This document shows positions 9,289 through 32,206 of a DNA stretch of 33,649 bases, piece after piece; the stretch's first letter is position 1; the number at the start of each line of letters is the position of its first letter. The stretch is taken from the NCBI GenBank assembly GCA_015488375.1, contig WFNX01000026.1, positions 1 to 33,649 of the forward strand. The letters run 5' to 3'. The DNA is from Mariprofundaceae bacterium (lineage in GTDB: Bacteria > Pseudomonadota > Zetaproteobacteria > Mariprofundales > Mariprofundaceae). The position numbers and the translations under genes are program-made. The notes beneath the pieces were generated by a model. The model was not told the DNA's origin, searched no databases, and saw only the letters and a list, made by a program, of their open reading frames with translations.

Positions 9289-9975
9289 CTAACGGCTCCG
9301 GTAATAACGATCTGCCGCGTAAAGATCGGCCGGGCGACCAATATCGAACCAGTGGCCATCATGATGATATCCCCGGCACTGTTGCCGCTCCATGCAGTCC
9401 CGGATGCAGGCCAGCAATGAAAAGCACTCACCCGCCGGCCACCGATGTAACACCGCAGCCGACCAGAGGGAAACACCGGCAAAGGTCAAACGCCTGCCCT
9501 GACAACACGTGACCTGCCCGCCATGCAAACAAAAATCCCCTGATGCATGATGCAAGGGGTTATCCACCAGGGCCAGCACAGCTCCCTGCCGGGGCAGGCA
9601 CCCCGCCAGTTGCTGCACATCGATATCGGCCTGGATATCCGCATTATGCACCAGCAGGGCCTCGCTGGCCGGCAACAGTTCCATGGCCTGGCGCACACCA
9701 CCGCCGGAATCCAGCAATGCCGGTTCATGACTGTAAACCACGCGCGCGCCAAAACGTCTGCCATCGCCGATGGTTTCGCGCAACATCGCCGCATGATGGT
9801 GCGTATTAATGGCAATATCGCGAATTCCTGCCGCCACCAGGCGGCGCATGATGCGGATAACCGAGGCCTCGCCGGCGATCTGCATCAAGGCTTTGGGGCG
9901 CCGATGCGTCAGCCATTTCAGCCGCGTGCCAAGACCGGCCGCCAGAATCACCGCGCATTCGATATTTGCTGTCAC
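9289..9975 (-). CDS. NTP transferase (MurU/GlmU-type nucleotidyltransferase)
   Basis: AVILAAGLGTRLKWLTHRRPKALMQIAG; GTG start at 9975 overlaps the upstream gene stop (GTGA). Confidence 0.85.
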   Translation of the reverse strand: MTANIECAVILAAGLGTRLKWLTHRRPKALMQIAGEASVIRIMRRLVAAGIRDIAINTHHHAAMLRETIGDGRRFGARVVYSHEPALLDSGGGVRQAMELLPASEALLVHNADIQADIDVQQLAGCLPRQGAVLALVDNPLHHASGDFCLHGGQVTCCQGRRLTFAGVSLWSAAVLHRWPAGECFSLLACIRDCMERQQCRGYHHDGHWFDIGRPADLYAADRYYRSR

Positions 9976-18096: not shown

Positions 18097-19674
18097 GAGT
18101 CTGTCGGACTTTCTTCCAGCACCCATGCTGATATAGTTTTCTGTAATGTGGGAGGCTGGTTTATGTCAGTGAGATTTCGTTTGATCAATCGCAGCACGCC
18201 ATATTTGTTGCCGCCGTCGATAGACGAGTGGCTGCCCGAGAGTCACCTTGCCCGGTTTGTCGTTGATGTGGTGAATCAGCTTGACACCTCAGAGATTGAA
18301 CGGAGCTACTCAGGTCGAGGCAGTGACCCGTGGCATCCGAAGTTGATGATAGCGCTGTTGTTTTATGGCTATGCGACGGGCGTATTTTCGAGTCGCAAAC
18401 TTGAGCGAGCCTCATACGATTCGGTGGCCTTTCGTTATATCTGTGGCAATGAGCATCCCGATCACGACAGCATTGCCACCTTCCGCCGCCGTTTTCTGCC
18501 CGCGCTTGAGCGGTTGTTTGTGCAGATACTGCATGTTGGCAGTGAGATGGGGTTATTCAAGCTGGGCAACGTCAGTCTGGATGGCACCAAGGTGAAAGCA
18601 AATGCGAGCAAGCACAAGGCATTAAGCTGGAAGCATGCGTGCAAGCTGGAAGAACAGTTTGAGGCCGAGGTGAAGGAGCTGCTGCGTCTGGCCAATGAAG
18701 CGGATGCATCGGAACTTCCGGACGGATTCAGCATTCCCGAAGAGCTGGCGATCCGGGAGAAGCGCCTGTCGGCCATCCGGGATGCGAAACAGAAGATTGA
18801 ACAGAGAGCGGCCGAACGGGAAGCTCGCGAACGTGCCGAGTATGAAGAGAAGCTGGCCAGACGCGAAGCGAGGGAGAAGGCCACGGGTAAGAAGGCGCGC
18901 GGCCGTGCTCCCGTTCCTCCCGAGTCAGGCCCGAAGGATAAGGATCAGGTGAGCCTGACCGACGAAGAGTCACGCATCATGCCTGTTTCCGGCGGTGGCT
19001 TTGAGCAGGCGTATAATGCACAGGCGGCCGTGGATATGGAGAGTATGATTGTGGTGGCCGCAAATCTTTCGCAGAACCCCAATGACAAACAGGAGGTGGA
19101 GCCGGTACTGGAAACGCTGGACAGCCTTCCCGAACAGCTGGGTAAGGTGGAAACCATCGTCGCAGATACAGGTTACTTCAGCGAGAACAACGTCAATGCC
19201 TGTCAGGCAAAGAGCATCCAACCACTGATCGCACACGGACGACAGCCGCATCATCCACCGTTGAATGAACGTCTTGAGCAACCCGGAGAACAGACCGCTG
19301 AATGCAGTGATCCGGTGGTGAATATGAAGCAGCAGCTACAAAGCGAAGAAGGCAAGTCGCTCTATGCCAAACGCAAAACAACTGTCGAACCGGTATTTGG
19401 CATCATCAAGCATGTGATGGGCTTCAGGCAATTCCTGATGCGCGGAAAGGAGAAGGTCAAAGGCGAGTGGAATCTCGTTTGCATGGCCTGGAATATTCGC
19501 CGCATGTTTGCTCTCCAGGCCGCATAATGCGGATCAATCGTTTGCCTGCAGGGGCTGAACAGGTGAAATCAGGGCAAATGACCGTGCCATGTCGCAGCGA
19601 CTATGCGTCAGGTCTTTTTCAACAAGGCGAAGCCTCAAGAAAGGAGGCTTGTCGGCTTCAAGTCCGACAAACTC
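18097..19674 (+). mobile_element. IS1182-family insertion sequence
   Basis: Terminal inverted repeats GAGTCTGTCGGACTT (18097-18111) / AAGTCCGACAAACTC (19660-19674), 14/15 matching, flanked on both sides by CTAG (18093-18096, 19675-19678); contains a DDE transposase. Confidence 0.88.
18163..19527 (+). CDS. IS1182-family transposase
   Basis: RSTPYLLPPSIDEWLPESHLARFVVDVV...HPDHDSIATFRRRF...SLDGTKVKANASKHKALSW...VADTGYFSENNV...KTTVEPVFGIIKHVMGFRQFLMRG. Confidence 0.93.
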   Translation: MSVRFRLINRSTPYLLPPSIDEWLPESHLARFVVDVVNQLDTSEIERSYSGRGSDPWHPKLMIALLFYGYATGVFSSRKLERASYDSVAFRYICGNEHPDHDSIATFRRRFLPALERLFVQILHVGSEMGLFKLGNVSLDGTKVKANASKHKALSWKHACKLEEQFEAEVKELLRLANEADASELPDGFSIPEELAIREKRLSAIRDAKQKIEQRAAEREARERAEYEEKLARREAREKATGKKARGRAPVPPESGPKDKDQVSLTDEESRIMPVSGGGFEQAYNAQAAVDMESMIVVAANLSQNPNDKQEVEPVLETLDSLPEQLGKVETIVADTGYFSENNVNACQAKSIQPLIAHGRQPHHPPLNERLEQPGEQTAECSDPVVNMKQQLQSEEGKSLYAKRKTTVEPVFGIIKHVMGFRQFLMRGKEKVKGEWNLVCMAWNIRRMFALQAA

Positions 19675-27368: not shown

Positions 27369-27443
27369 TGGTTGGCTCGGGCGGTTTCGAACCGCCGACC
27401 CCCACCATGTCAAGGTGGTGCTCTACCCCTGAGCTACGAGCCA
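27369..27443 (-). tRNA. tRNA-Val(GAC) with encoded CCA
   Basis: Minus strand TGGCTCG TAGCTCAGGGGTAGAGC CCACC-TTGACAT-GGTGG GGCGGTTCGAACCGCC CGAGCCA-A-CCA; 7-bp acceptor stem closes perfectly; anticodon GAC. Confidence 0.93.
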
Positions 27444-27444
27444 A
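27405..27444 (-). repeat. attL: 40-bp direct repeat, 5' half of tRNA-Val
   Basis: ccatgtcaaggtggtgctctacccctgagctacgagccaa, identical to 32107-32146. Confidence 0.93.
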
Positions 27445-27469
27445 AAACGTTGAAATAGCTGGGCTCCTC

Positions 27470-27498
27470 ATCATAAGCAAGTTGCAGCACACTGAAAA
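27470..27498 (-). promoter_or_regulatory. Candidate element-borne promoter for the intact tRNA-Val
   Basis: Minus strand TTTTCA -17 nt- TATGAT, ending about 26 nt upstream of the tRNA 5' end. Confidence 0.45.
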
Positions 27499-27516
27499 GT
27501 TGCACTATAGTTGCAG
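27494..27516 (+). repeat. Left copy of 23-bp direct repeat, candidate integrase arm sites
   Basis: gaaaagttgcactatagttgcag; identical copy at 31979-32001; an additional AGTTGCA lies at 27480-27486. Confidence 0.8.
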
Positions 27517-27574
27517 AGAGAAACACTCCCAGCCCCTCTAAGCTGGCGCGAATCATAGTCAGGAGCATACTACC

Positions 27575-28657
27575 ATGGCAAGCATTCAAAAACGAACTCT
27601 CCAAGACGGGTCAGTCAGATGGCTGCTTCAGATCAGGAAGAAAGGTTTCAAAACCGTCAACAGAGTCAAAAAGACCAAGGCTGCCGCAGAAAGAGAAGCT
27701 CGAAGAATCGAAGCCGCCATGGATAACAACACATGGGATGAATTCGCTTCAGAAGAACAAAAGAAAGGCAACACTCCCCTAGCCTACTTCATTAAGAAGT
27801 ATCTCGAAGAAGTCACCCCTCACAAGGCAGGAGGAGAAAAAGGCATCATCAATGAAACAAGCACCCTGAATCAGGTGCTTCGATCGCCGATAGGAAGCAT
27901 GGATATCTACCGAATCAAGAGAGGCCACATCATCGAGTTGCGCAACTCCTGGAGAGACAATGGCAACTCTCCATCAACCATCAATAGAAAGCTCACCACG
28001 CTTCAGGATGTGTTCACACACATTCAAGTGGACTGGAGACATGAGCAACTGATCAATCCAGTTCAAGGCACGAGAATATCTTTTAAGAAAAATGCAGCAA
28101 AGGCAAAAGCCCGAAGCCGCACGCTTTCAGAAAGTGAACTCGCCGCCATGAGGAAAGCACTCGATGAATGCCGCAGCCCCTACATGCGCTGGATGTTTGA
28201 CTTCGCTCTGGAAACAGCCGGCCGCAGACGAGAGCTATTGGAAAACACATGGAATAATGTATCCGCTGACTTCAGCAGCCTCTGCATTCCCGCAGAACTA
28301 TCCAAAACGAGAGTCGAGAGGCATATTCCATTAACTCCGGCTGCTCAAGCAATTCTCAAAGAGATCAAATCTTATCAGGCTGATAAACCAACTGAATATA
28401 TCTTCCCTTTAACGGAAAAGGCATTCACCGAAGCATGGAAGAAAGCTTACAAGCGATCAAAGCTCGTAGACTTCCAATTCAGAGACACTCGCCACATGGC
28501 CACCACTATGCTTTCGAATATCTATCCGAAGATGCAAGACCTCGCGAAAATCACCGGACATGAAAAACTCGAAACACTGCTAGGATACTATGAGGAAGAT
28601 ATCAACGATCAAATCTCAAGAATGAGAGCCCACTTCAACAGTGAAAACCGAACCTAA
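27575..28657 (+). CDS. Tyrosine recombinase/integrase
   Basis: N-terminal arm-binding-like domain, TAGRRRELLENTW, FRDTRHMATTMLS, ITGHEKLETLLGYY catalytic motifs; adjacent to attL. Confidence 0.92.
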   Translation: MASIQKRTLQDGSVRWLLQIRKKGFKTVNRVKKTKAAAEREARRIEAAMDNNTWDEFASEEQKKGNTPLAYFIKKYLEEVTPHKAGGEKGIINETSTLNQVLRSPIGSMDIYRIKRGHIIELRNSWRDNGNSPSTINRKLTTLQDVFTHIQVDWRHEQLINPVQGTRISFKKNAAKAKARSRTLSESELAAMRKALDECRSPYMRWMFDFALETAGRRRELLENTWNNVSADFSSLCIPAELSKTRVERHIPLTPAAQAILKEIKSYQADKPTEYIFPLTEKAFTEAWKKAYKRSKLVDFQFRDTRHMATTMLSNIYPKMQDLAKITGHEKLETLLGYYEEDINDQISRMRAHFNSENRT

Positions 28658-28660
28658 CTA

Positions 28661-28689
28661 TTGATTTTTATTGGTCTTTCGTGTATAAT
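28661..28689 (+). promoter_or_regulatory. Sigma70-type promoter upstream of AlpA-like gene
   Basis: TTGATT (28661-28666) -17 nt- TATAAT (28684-28689). Confidence 0.6.
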
Positions 28690-28775
28690 AATAAAAGTTG
28701 CTAGACAGCTGTTCAACCGAAGCTGAGTCATCAGTGGAACCCTGCTGTTAAATCGAAATCAGGAGGAAGGACAAC

Positions 28776-28976
28776 ATGACAAAGCAACAAGATTTGGCAG
28801 CAATGGTAATCAATATTGATGAGCTGTCTGAAATCCTCGGGATATCCAAAAAGACAATCCACAACCGACTCAGCGCAAACGATGATATGCCGACACCAAG
28901 AAAGTTTGGAAAAAAACTAATATGGCTGCGGCCAGATGTTGAGGACTGGCTCATCAGGCTGCCGAAGGTAGCCTGA
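28776..28976 (+). CDS. AlpA/excisionase-type helix-turn-helix regulator
   Basis: INIDELSEILGISKKTIHNRLSANDDMPTPRKFGKKLIWLRPDVEDWL; strong RBS AGGAGGAAGG. Confidence 0.8.
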   Translation: MTKQQDLAAMVINIDELSEILGISKKTIHNRLSANDDMPTPRKFGKKLIWLRPDVEDWLIRLPKVA

Positions 28977-28998
28977 TGATAAAATCAGCCTCGCAGAG

Positions 28999-29035
28999 CA
29001 GGAGCATAAGACCAGCTTATGCATATCCTGCCTTC
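28999..29035 (+). promoter_or_regulatory. Candidate oriT with MOBP-like nic site
   Basis: Perfect 7-bp inverted repeat GCATAAG-accag-CTTATGC (29004-29022) immediately 5' of ATATCCTG|CC (nic-like TATCCTG 29024-29030). Confidence 0.6.
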
Positions 29036-29086
29036 ACTTTGTTTCGTCGCTAAAGTCTATTAGGCAGGAGCCTATCTAGATGATGT

Positions 29087-29605
29087 ATGAAACTGACAAG
29101 AAACAAAGTGCCGTCGCTGACGCGCGACAACCTAGATCCGCGAGTCTATCTCCCATGGTATTGGGAGCTCATAGAATCGCTTGTGCCACGCTTCAGTGGC
29201 TATCCTTTCCATCTATCGCCGAAAGACTTCGGCTACACTGATGAGCGTTGGCCCGGCCTGTTCTACAACAAGCAGGCCCATTGGCCGAGATGGTTTGCCA
29301 TTCGCCAGACGATTAATCTTGGCGAGAAGCATGCGAAGAGCACACCCTCCCTCATTGGAAGCTCCAATTTCCCGAAGGTCGTTTCGGAATGGCTCGATAG
29401 AGCTCTGGCATCCGAAAAGCTTCTCGCCAATCCAGATAAAATCTGGATTGATCCTCACGGATTTCTCATCACCGATGAAAGGATCGAACTCGAAAACTGG
29501 AGCGAATCTGAGAAAGAAACATTCTTTGGACAGCAGCGCTATCAGTTCCGAGAATTACTTGAATGGGATGTTGACCTCAAGTGCGCGAGATTCATCAATG
29601 ATTAA
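29087..29605 (+). CDS. Uncharacterised 172-aa protein, possible mobilization accessory
   Basis: Intact ORF between oriT-like site and relaxase-like gene; overlaps next start by 8 nt (ATGATTAA). No motif recognised. Confidence 0.65.
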   Translation: MKLTRNKVPSLTRDNLDPRVYLPWYWELIESLVPRFSGYPFHLSPKDFGYTDERWPGLFYNKQAHWPRWFAIRQTINLGEKHAKSTPSLIGSSNFPKVVSEWLDRALASEKLLANPDKIWIDPHGFLITDERIELENWSESEKETFFGQQRYQFRELLEWDVDLKCARFIND

Positions 29606-30197
29606 GGTGCGCTGGGGAAGCGATGTTGGAGCCCTCAGAGCCCACCTGGCATATATTGCTGGTGGAAAGAGCAAGGTACTCGCCAACGGCGAGCGAGTTT
29701 ATCCCGCCAAGAGCATCAAGGATGGCGCTTCGCGAAAATCATACCTGGCAAAGCACAAATATTTTCTGGAACCGAAAGGGAAAGGCAGACGATCAAAAAC
29801 AACCGATCTTCGAATGATCATGTCATTTCAAGGAGCACTTCCAAAAAACGCTCACAAAATCGCCATCGAATTCCTGAAAGAGAACTTTCCCAACATGTGC
29901 GCCACCTATGCAATCCATTCCAAGCCGGTTAAAAAGAACGCCGCAGGAGACAAGCAGGCAGGCTGGCACATTCACTATGTCATCTGTCCCCGCAAGCCGG
30001 ATGGAAAGATGCTGCGACTTCGCAAACAAGAGCTGAAAGAGCTAAAAGCTGCTTATCACGACCTTGCTCTTCGCCATCAACTCAAAACAGGATGGGAGGT
30101 TCAACTAAAGGAAACTGCAGAAAAAGAAATGGCTTGGCCAAACGGGCCAAGCCAGTTAGGTACCCACAGCAACTCAAGAAATTTATTGGTTAAATAA
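29598..30197 (+). CDS. Minimal HUH relaxase-like protein (about 199 aa)
   Basis: LRAHLAYIAGGK near N-terminus, MIMSFQGALPKNAHKIAIEFLKENFP, TYAIHSKP...GWHIHYVICP (H..../HxH triad-like) as in MOBP/MobA relaxases. Start at 29598, not 29181. Confidence 0.6.
   Translation: MIKVRWGSDVGALRAHLAYIAGGKSKVLANGERVYPAKSIKDGASRKSYLAKHKYFLEPKGKGRRSKTTDLRMIMSFQGALPKNAHKIAIEFLKENFPNMCATYAIHSKPVKKNAAGDKQAGWHIHYVICPRKPDGKMLRLRKQELKELKAAYHDLALRHQLKTGWEVQLKETAEKEMAWPNGPSQLGTHSNSRNLLVK
30121..30154 (-). terminator. Intrinsic terminator for lipoprotein gene, embedded in relaxase-like ORF
   Basis: Minus strand TGGCTTGGCC-cgttt-GGCCAAGCCA followed by TTTCTTTTT; perfect 10-bp stem. Confidence 0.75.
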
Positions 30198-30578
30198 TCC
30201 TGTCTTATGCTTAACGGCAGCTTCACTCATTTTAGCTTTTTTAACCACCATATGTTCATCAAACAAAATCGTTAGCTCTTTCTTAGTTCCACTAGCGGTA
30301 CCGCCAAACGAACTAATTATCGGGATATAGCTGATCGCATCAGCGCTCACCTTTTCAAAATCATACTTCCAGATCTCAAGACCATTTCCTGTAAAACTTG
30401 TAGAATTAGGCTCACCGAACATATTTTTCACTTCACTAGCAGTAGTCTTTCCTTCGATTACTTTTTGAGAAATCGACTGACTATCCTCGTGCCTCAAAGC
30501 CTCATTTCCACTCGAAGCACACCCTGCCAAAAGACCTAGCCCTGCAATCACAATCGTACTTTTTATAAATATATTCAA
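30183..30578 (-). CDS. Lipoprotein with SmpA/OmlA (BamE)-like domain
   Basis: Lipobox LLAGC after hydrophobic stretch; VIEGKTTASEVKNMFGEPNSTSFTGNGLEIWKYDF resembles SmpA/OmlA fold. TTG start 30578 with AGGGGGG upstream preferred over ORF start 30608. Confidence 0.65.
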   Translation of the reverse strand: MNIFIKSTIVIAGLGLLAGCASSGNEALRHEDSQSISQKVIEGKTTASEVKNMFGEPNSTSFTGNGLEIWKYDFEKVSADAISYIPIISSFGGTASGTKKELTILFDEHMVVKKAKMSEAAVKHKTGLFNQ

Positions 30579-30776
30579 AATCAACCCCCCTAAAGAATCA
30601 ACAAACACCCAATGGCATTTTGAATTGCAATAATAGACAATAACCCCATAAAAGCAACGTAATACATCGACAGTCTAACCAGCTGAATCCTCCTCCTATC
30701 GTCGGACGATTAGCTCCCTGCGGGGCAACATTTATTATATTGAGTTCGCTATCGCTACATATCTGATGGCACCGTA

Positions 30777-31751
30777 TTACACACTTTTCGGTTTCCAGAG
30801 GTCAGGGTGATTGTAGACAGTTTTTCTGCTCAGGCCACTCAGCTTTGCAATAGCGGTAGACCCTACTTTCTTACCCTCACTGCGTAACTGCTCCACCGCT
30901 TCGAGAATCTTACGCTCAGTCTCGGTTGCACGCTGCTGGTTGGCATAAGCCGCTCCAAGAGCCTGCTTCTCTTTGAGAGGCAAATCAGGGTTGATTTCCG
31001 CAGCACCTCGATTCTTTTGTACCCCGATACTGTTTCGATGCTTCCAGCTCCATTTGGCGATGCTTTTCGCTGTTGCCTTGACCTCTGAGAAAGGCAGCGG
31101 CTCCATAAAAAGGCTATTGCGATACTCGCATAGGCTGAGCACATCACGCTCCCAGCCCGAGAAGCTGAGGTAGCCCTTCACGGCCTTGTAAGCCCACACT
31201 CTCGCATCATTGAACAAGTCGCAGTTGCGGCTTTCATAAACAGACTCAGCGGTTTCGATTTCAAGTTCACTGATCGGATCGCAGTATTCCTCAATTTCAG
31301 GGAGGCCGTACCTCACATCACAACAGGTCATCCGCCATTTTTTCGACAGAGGGTTTTTGACCATCAGGCCAGCGTAATTTGGGTCGCCACCCATTGTCGC
31401 TGTCATACCCCGCCAGAGCGCTTTGAAGTATTTCTGAGGGGCGAGGCGTGCATTCTCGGAGAACAGTACTGGTGCATCCAGTTCGAAGAGCAGATGCGCG
31501 TGCGCATTCTCGGGGTTACTCAGAATGATGGTCGGATTAAGGCCGATTTCCTCGTAGGCCAGCGCGCCGCCTTCGTAGTCAACATCAATGACAATGTACC
31601 TGCGAAGAATCTGGTTCAGAGATACGTGGCTATATTGGAGCGCCAGCTCTCGGGGAAGCAATCGAGTCCCGTAGTCAAAGTCATTAGAACATCGAACCTT
31701 CTTGCCGAGGCTCTCTATGAATCGCTGTATCGGTGCCGGGTGTCCTTTCAC
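30777..31751 (-). CDS. ColE2-type plasmid replicase (Rep) with PriCT-like region and C-terminal HTH
   Basis: RRYIVIDVDYEGGALAYEEIGLNPTIILSNPENAHAHLLFELDAPV...WRGMTATMGGDPNYAGLMVKNPLSKKW...RDVLSLCEYRNSLFMEPLPFSEVKATAKSIAKWSWK...GSTAIAKLSGLSRKTVYNH. Confidence 0.82.
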   Translation of the reverse strand: MKGHPAPIQRFIESLGKKVRCSNDFDYGTRLLPRELALQYSHVSLNQILRRYIVIDVDYEGGALAYEEIGLNPTIILSNPENAHAHLLFELDAPVLFSENARLAPQKYFKALWRGMTATMGGDPNYAGLMVKNPLSKKWRMTCCDVRYGLPEIEEYCDPISELEIETAESVYESRNCDLFNDARVWAYKAVKGYLSFSGWERDVLSLCEYRNSLFMEPLPFSEVKATAKSIAKWSWKHRNSIGVQKNRGAAEINPDLPLKEKQALGAAYANQQRATETERKILEAVEQLRSEGKKVGSTAIAKLSGLSRKTVYNHPDLWKPKSV

Positions 31752-31807
31752 CCATGCACGTAACTAATTTTTTAGGAATTGCTACTCCGACCAGGAGTCG
31801 GCTGCGG

Positions 31808-31826
31808 GCCGCCCAATCCGGGCGGC
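31808..31826. repeat. Strong hairpin in the rep-attR intergenic region
   Basis: GCCGCCC-aatcc-GGGCGGC perfect 7-bp stem. Confidence 0.8.
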
Positions 31827-31978
31827 TAAAATCAGATCAAACGTGCGAGACGGAGCAGGGAACTATGGCCGAATGCGTGGAGGTCAGAGCCGGATGCCGC
31901 GGGACCATCCAAGGCATGCCATCTGCGTGTCCGCTAGGACGAGGCCCGCACGAGCTAAAATCAATCCTCCCGAAGCTC

Positions 31979-32001
31979 GAAAGTTGCACTATAGTTGCAG
32001 T
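31979..32001 (+). repeat. Right copy of 23-bp direct repeat, candidate integrase arm sites
   Basis: gaaaagttgcactatagttgcag, identical to 27494-27516. Confidence 0.8.
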
Positions 32002-32106
32002 GAAAGTGGGAACACCCGGGAATAACAAGGAATAATAATTAGTATAACTTCTTGTTTATAAAGGAATTATATTGTTTTCTTGAGGAATGAAAAAGAATAT
32101 ATTTCG

Positions 32107-32146
32107 CCATGTCAAGGTGGTGCTCTACCCCTGAGCTACGAGCCAA
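32107..32146 (-). repeat. attR: truncated tRNA-Val (5' half only), 40-bp direct repeat
   Basis: Same 40 bp; continues into non-tRNA sequence on the element side (TTCG|ccatgtc). Confidence 0.93.
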
Positions 32147-32177: not shown

Positions 32178-32206
32178 ATCGTATTGTCGCCCCTGCATAT
32201 GGTCAA
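32178..32206 (-). promoter_or_regulatory. Candidate original host promoter of tRNA-Val, now reading into the element
   Basis: Minus strand TTGACC -17 nt- TACGAT just upstream of the truncated tRNA copy. Confidence 0.45.

Follow-up and report, generated by a model that had tools for sequence, protein, structure and literature searches.

A 4.7-kb element in the 5' half of a tRNA-Val gene

The stretch of DNA analyzed here (the window, 33,649 nt in length; contig WFNX01000026.1 of GenBank assembly GCA_015488375.1) belongs to an iron-oxidiser-type (zetaproteobacterial) bacterium of the family Mariprofundaceae, which is represented by an 87%-complete draft assembly of 157 contigs. The window contains, at positions 27405–32106, a compact element of 4,702 bp that is likely to be an integrative mobilizable element (IME). 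A repeat search delimits the element by a perfect 40-bp direct repeat (27405–27444 and 32107–32146, 4,702 bp from start to start), at exactly the coordinates given in a preliminary description of this DNA; the match extends overall to 43 nt at 98% identity, with the first 40 nt identical, and for a perfect 40-bp repeat within 7 kb a chance origin is excluded. The repeats enclose six protein genes, rather than the approximately seven first counted, coding for an integrase, an AlpA-like protein, a 172-aa protein, a 199-aa relaxase-like protein, a BamE-like lipoprotein and a ColE2-type replication initiator (Rep). All six are open at full length, and none of them is a type IV secretion system (T4SS) gene. 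The GC content of the element, 47.5%, compares with 54.2–57.5% in every sampled host stretch of equal length.

The preliminary description overlooked the identity of the repeat, which is the 5' half of a tRNA-Val(GAC) gene. An intact tRNA-Val gene with the anticodon GAC is found at 27369–27443 on the minus strand (ARAGORN; Rfam tRNA, 9.1e-13), and the Rfam scan reported nothing besides tRNA. This gene is a restored one, with a 3' half that comes from the host and a 5' half (27405–27443) that comes from the element, which sits upstream of it. The attL core (27405–27444, minus strand), as defined by the repeat search and by alignment with other elements, is the 40-bp 5' half, ending just past the anticodon loop, and the attR core (32107–32146, minus strand) is the host's original 5' half, now a stub. 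Joining the two flanks in silico (attB) yields an intact tRNA-Val gene plus its upstream promoter region. The same gene is uninterrupted and preceded by its native promoter in three related genomes (G188, G209 and G072, the last from the same genus as the host), which therefore represent empty sites, so that the empty attB proposed earlier as a check on the element is indeed found in related genomes. A restored tRNA gene at one end, a 5' fragment at the other and a crossover at the anticodon loop are the features of islands of the 5' tDNA-fragment, anticodon-site class, and all of them are present here. That integration took place at the anticodon loop is supported by the repeats, the restored tRNA, the empty sites and two other elements that occupy the same half-gene. 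In the tRNA half carried by the element the first base is U1; it forms a pair with the A in the host 3' half, and the half therefore fits the present host lineage; many relatives of other genera have A1-U instead.

Next to each att core there is a direct repeat that resembles an integrase binding site. Probable arm-type sites with AGTTGCA repeats, TTGCACTATAGTTGCA, are located at 27478–27519, and their motif is also present in the same-site elements of genomes G245 and G252; a second arm-type site, AGTTGCACTATAGTTGCAG, lies near attR at 31980–32003. The motif TTGCAACTATAGTGCAACT, probably an integrase arm site, is found towards both ends of the element in the window as in G245; in G252 it is found at the int end.

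The integrase and other elements at the same site

The integrase (27575–28657, plus strand; 360 aa) is a tyrosine recombinase (Pfam Phage_integrase, 5.4e-18). It is followed on the same strand by a 66-aa AlpA/excisionase-like protein with a helix-turn-helix motif (28776–28976; HTH_17, 27.1 bits at a cut-off of 27; phrog_66, 1.9e-6), a probable recombination directionality factor. Integrases with 65% identity to that of the window are encoded in G245 and G252, which belong to two other genera; in both, the gene lies at the 5' end of tRNA-Val, adjoining thrS, with an AlpA-like homologue beside it. In G245 there is a second tRNA-Val 5' half (C49:6076-6113) in addition to the intact tRNA gene at about C49:31448, which means that a complete 25.4-kb element, carrying other cargo, occupies the same site; the G252 contig stops inside its element. 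Beyond the host, G245 and G252, no integrase of this subfamily was detected in 399 genomes of the phylum (E 1e-60), and viral contigs gave no match to it. The 25.4-kb element of G245 (L065/L030; C49:6076-31487) encodes FtsK/SpoIIIE-like and AAA ATPases together with neighbouring proteins of unassigned role, perhaps a defence cluster.

The mobilization module

The preliminary description also listed a site resembling an origin of transfer (oriT), and this site is present at 29005–29031 on the plus strand, just before the genes for the 172-aa and relaxase-like proteins. It reads GCATAAG-ACCAG-CTTATGC-A-TATCCTGCC, that is, a 7-bp inverted repeat followed by an A and the nic sequence TATCCTG/CC (the slash marks the nick), in agreement with YATCCTG/Y, the nic consensus of IncP/MOBP1 relaxases. 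There are two places in the window where YATCCTGY is preceded at 0–4 nt by a perfect 7-bp inverted repeat, the second of which (16117) lies well away from the element; in 60 windows simulated with a Markov model, just two such places occurred. The strict oriT pattern was found in 3 of 78 genomes of the class, namely those of the host, G040 (Mariprofundus sp. OFTM252) and G009; the G009 site has no inverted repeat, lies within long open reading frames and was rejected as a chance occurrence. The arrangement typical of a MOBP1 oriT, YATCCTG/Y beside an inverted repeat, is thus seen both here and in G040.

The 172-aa protein (29087–29605, plus strand) has no family match, and its gene overlaps the start of the relaxase-like gene; it is a probable relaxosome accessory protein. 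The 199-aa relaxase-like protein (29598–30197, plus strand; NCBIfam MobP1, 1.2e-5; Pfam Relaxase, 24.4 bits) has an HxH motif (H124, H126), a further histidine, H107, and a candidate catalytic tyrosine, Tyr19. In G040, an island at tRNA-Met genes contains a comparable module, with an oriT of the form GGGATAAG-TGGAG-CTTATCCC-TATCCTGCC (L009, about 9334–9362) before genes for a 160-aa protein and a relaxase-like protein of ~193 aa. The arms of the two oriT sites differ in sequence while their arrangement is alike; the 172-aa and 160-aa proteins are 25% identical, with a global alignment score reached by none of 2000 shuffles, and the two relaxase-like proteins are 37% identical, share H107, H124 and H126, and are each matched weakly and independently by the MobP1 and Relaxase profiles. 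The three histidines are present in all three relaxase homologues, the third being encoded in G233, where Tyr19 is not cleanly aligned and a homologous gene is disrupted by a stop and a change of frame.

Relatives of the relaxase-like and 172-aa proteins are absent from 72,556 plasmid records, and the relaxase-like protein has no match in viral contigs. As a single query against the whole genome collection it retrieved no relative, and a three-row alignment used as query retrieved only the two known Mariprofundus contigs. The AlphaFold models of the relaxase-like and 172-aa proteins (mean pLDDT 51.6 and 40.2, respectively) were discarded as unusable, and a search of solved structures with the relaxase profile returned nothing usable.

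The G040 island (L009, 4008–14719) spans ~10.6 kb at tandem tRNA-Met genes, is bounded by a partial tRNA-Met copy and, besides the homologous mobilization pair, encodes a possible defence protein of 1506 aa, which has a weak AAA match. An apparent island in G233, from a neighbouring lineage (L008, G233:C313, 2009–13129), lies beside a carA-like gene and combines an integrase with a TrwC-type MOBF relaxase and a TrwB-type coupling protein; it also has two copies related to the relaxase-like protein of the window, one of them broken. At the time of a 2017 review of IMEs, no canonical IME with a MobF relaxase was known (PMC5704250).

Replication gene and lipoprotein

Rep (30777–31751, minus strand; 324 aa) belongs to the ColE2/Replicase family (Pfam Replicase, 4.6e-26; Rep chain of PDB 3vw4, 1.6e-6). 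It has a Replicase domain and a PriCT-1-like part, aligns over 95% of its length with plasmid replication initiators at ~34% identity and has no relatives in other genomes of the same bacterial family. The identities first proposed for the integrase, AlpA and Rep genes are thereby supported by family matches, the match of the relaxase being weak. Both strands of the rep leader (31752–31880) can fold into strong hairpins (z -1.75 and -2.57), possibly for antisense control of copy number. Between rep and the mobilization genes lies a gene for a BamE-like lipoprotein with an LAGC lipobox (30183–30608, minus strand; phrog_3135, 1.2e-24), of ~132 aa if, as is probable, translation starts at a TTG near 30578, the start being uncertain. 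Its relatives, some of which are named BamE, come from 130 plasmids and 7 phages; the protein reads as accessory cargo, and a role in surface exclusion would be a guess.

Displaced and candidate promoters

The native promoter of the tRNA-Val gene, the sigma-70-like TTGACC-N17-TACGAT (32178–32206, minus strand), is conserved upstream of the uninterrupted gene at the three empty sites, and the insertion has placed it 4.7 kb from the tRNA. Reading of tRNA-Val from this original promoter is implausible because transcription would have to cross those 4.7 kb; with the front half of the gene replaced and the native promoter stranded, the element must supply a promoter. A candidate, a match to the consensus, is TTGCCA-N18-TATGAT (27552–27581, minus strand), which overlaps the start of int. 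The best sigma-70-like site facing the tRNA is alike in all three elements (TTGCCA separated by 16 or 18 nt from TATGAT or TATCAT, in each case over the int start); the second hexamer is non-coding, and the TTGCCA hexamer coincides with the Met-Ala-Ser start of int and, lying within coding sequence, would be conserved anyway. A weak terminator-like hairpin directly after this candidate (27546–27529) counts against it, and a nearer site in the window element, TTTTCA-N17-TATGAT, scores 9/12. Since a general promoter scan gave 10 sites against 5.4 expected (standard deviation 2.4), the tRNA promoter sites stay candidates.

For rep there is a candidate promoter, again a consensus match, TTTTCA-N16-TATAAT (32066–32093, minus strand). 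Both rep and the tRNA are transcribed leftwards, so that recombination would exchange the promoter in front of rep for the one in front of the tRNA half. It is conceivable, if rather doubtful, that this exchange is a working principle by which a whole family of elements lives: in the circle, the element promoter would read through the tRNA half into rep, and after integration that promoter would serve the host tRNA and the host's tRNA promoter would stand upstream of rep, so that integration state, tRNA-Val supply and replication would be coupled. For such a coupling, one or other of the two promoters would have to reach into rep, which has a candidate promoter of its own.

Interpretation and alternatives

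The genes and sites fit those of an IME, in that the element encodes an integrase, is framed by exact att direct repeats at a defined site and has, as far as the presence of parts goes, an oriT and a relaxase-like gene without mating-pore genes. We consider it likely that it is a 4,702-bp IME of Zetaproteobacteria that would be excised by Int and AlpA, replicate briefly by means of Rep and be mobilized in trans. The site, the restored tRNA, the displaced promoter, the relatives at the same site and the oriT anatomy with its conserved neighbours are direct observations. Integration, in this interpretation, would have Int recombine attP, with its tRNA-Val 5' half, into the host gene at the anticodon loop, whereby the host promoter and 5' half are displaced to the far end and the element gives the gene a new 5' half and, as the anatomy demands, a promoter. 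AlpA would probably drive excision, and the ColE2-type Rep would keep the excised circle replicating for a time. The nick at TATCCTG/CC, upstream of the two mobilization genes, would be made by the relaxase-like protein, probably together with the 172-aa protein, and the relaxase-like protein would then guide the strand out by way of a mating pore belonging to a helper conjugative element; excision, transient replication, nicking and transfer are all deduced from homology and gene arrangement. The combination of integration, mobilization and replication put forward in the preliminary description thus persists as the best-supported reading, with the autonomous part of the replication reduced to a suggestion from Rep homology.

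Several observations weigh against an IME. The relaxase-like protein falls below both curated cut-offs (MobP1, 24.9 bits vs 200; Pfam Relaxase, 24.4 vs 24.6) and carries HxK, whereas MOBP enzymes usually have HxD, and for these reasons we call it MOBP1-like in function without placing it in MOBP1; AlphaFold modelled it poorly (mean pLDDT 51.6), and a fold search gave no significant match. Searches of relatives and databases found neither a circular form of the element nor a plasmid relative nor a second copy of the six-gene set. Of the syntenic and circular plasmid relatives that the preliminary description proposed as a check, what was recovered is the same-site integrases of two genera and the module of oriT, 172-aa-like and relaxase-like genes in G040, and no relative with the full gene order. 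No VirB4 family gene was found in the host assembly or ten relatives, which agrees with mobilization in trans; as the host assembly is an incomplete draft, a helper may be present yet unseen.

As an alternative, the element could be a small mobilizable ColE2-type plasmid with an integrase, integrated from time to time, living mainly as a plasmid and caught here in the integrated state. Relatives of its Rep occur in 3,055 plasmid records, of which about half are mobilizable, and the hairpins of the rep leader would suit ColE2-style antisense control; yet the relaxase-like and 172-aa proteins are missing from all 72,556 plasmid records, the int/AlpA module and the site are common to other integrated elements without a rep match, and the conservation of the att and arm sites points to integration as a regular state. 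A plasmid is an unlikely alternative to an IME. We regard it as very improbable that the element is a decayed remnant, formerly mobile and now fixed, with a non-working relaxase-like gene. The broken homologue in G233, the lack of some expected residues in the relaxase-like protein and the helper not seen in the host assembly would agree with decay, but each of the six genes keeps a full-length reading frame, the 40-bp repeats match without a single difference, the two arm sites and oriT are still whole, and the relaxase motifs recur in the independent island of G040. An assembly artefact, in which a free plasmid sharing 40 bp with the tRNA gene was joined into a chromosomal contig, is scarcely credible: the draft does consist of 157 contigs and k-mers used in assembly can be as long as the shared stretch, but in two other genomes homologous integrases stand at precisely this half-gene junction, and an assembler would normally break at such a repeat and not join on both sides. 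A phage satellite was rejected as well, the element being devoid of packaging or structural phage genes.

Relation to known systems

To speak of an undescribed system, as was initially done, is too strong, since elements of the size of Tn5520 (~4.7 kb, and not known to carry a rep gene) and IMEs with Rep, such as the larger SGI1 and GIsul2, are already known. All parts of the element are of known kinds, and the novelty lies in their combination, in the insertion of a family of elements at the tRNA-Val 5' half and in the divergent relaxase and its partner. The relaxase-like protein and its oriT resemble the MOBP1/IncP system in having YATCCTG/Y beside an inverted repeat, a weak MobP1 match and an HxH motif, and the protein differs in its length of 199 aa, its sub-threshold scores, its HxK, the lack of recognised TraJ/TraK-type neighbours and the unassigned family of its 172-aa partner. 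Rep shares with ColE2-type plasmid replicons the Replicase domain, the PriCT-1-like part and the match to the 3vw4 chain, but is ~34% identical to them at best and is carried on an integrative element.

Tn5520 of Bacteroides fragilis, termed the smallest mobilizable transposon, with single integrase and mobilization genes, in the title of a paper cited in PMC5704250, is similar in size class, in its one tyrosine integrase and one relaxase and in the lack of a T4SS; unlike the element, it has a MobV relaxase and inserts with low specificity into AT-rich DNA (PMC5704250), without a tRNA site. SGI1 and GIsul2 are also integrated, encode theta-type Rep proteins and are mobilized in trans (PMC5704250, PMC7826253), but they use other integration sites and other Rep families, and GIsul2 has no canonical relaxase of its own. 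Most IMEs measure 5–15 kb according to the 2017 review, which recorded no canonical IME (with its own relaxase and without a T4SS) from Proteobacteria (PMC5704250), although later examples may exist. Islands with a 5' tDNA fragment are the minority in the Islander collection (159, vs 3,760 with a 3' fragment; PMC4383910), and recombinant bacterial tRNA genes are nearly always read from the original promoter (PMC8371274). Like the element, the 5' tDNA islands of Islander and the archaeal pTN3-like integrases displace the 5' part of the tRNA gene (PMC4383910, PMC8371274), so that the restored tRNA has to be read from a promoter on the element side; they concern other elements and lineages, whereas the integrase family described here targets tRNA-Val(GAC) in Zetaproteobacteria.

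If the element is an IME, six genes would suffice for integration, replication and mobilization, close to the smallest size for an IME with a relaxase, and this in iron-oxidising bacteria, a group whose mobile elements have received little study. Insertion into the 5' half obliges the element to take over expression of the tRNA gene and would make it a case of a mobile element that supplies the promoter of a host housekeeping gene, and the divergent mini-relaxase with its partner would offer a handle on the size of a minimal working mobilization module. Apart from the element itself, the window has one evident piece of mobile DNA, an IS1182-family transposase gene at 18148–19527, open over 459 aa.

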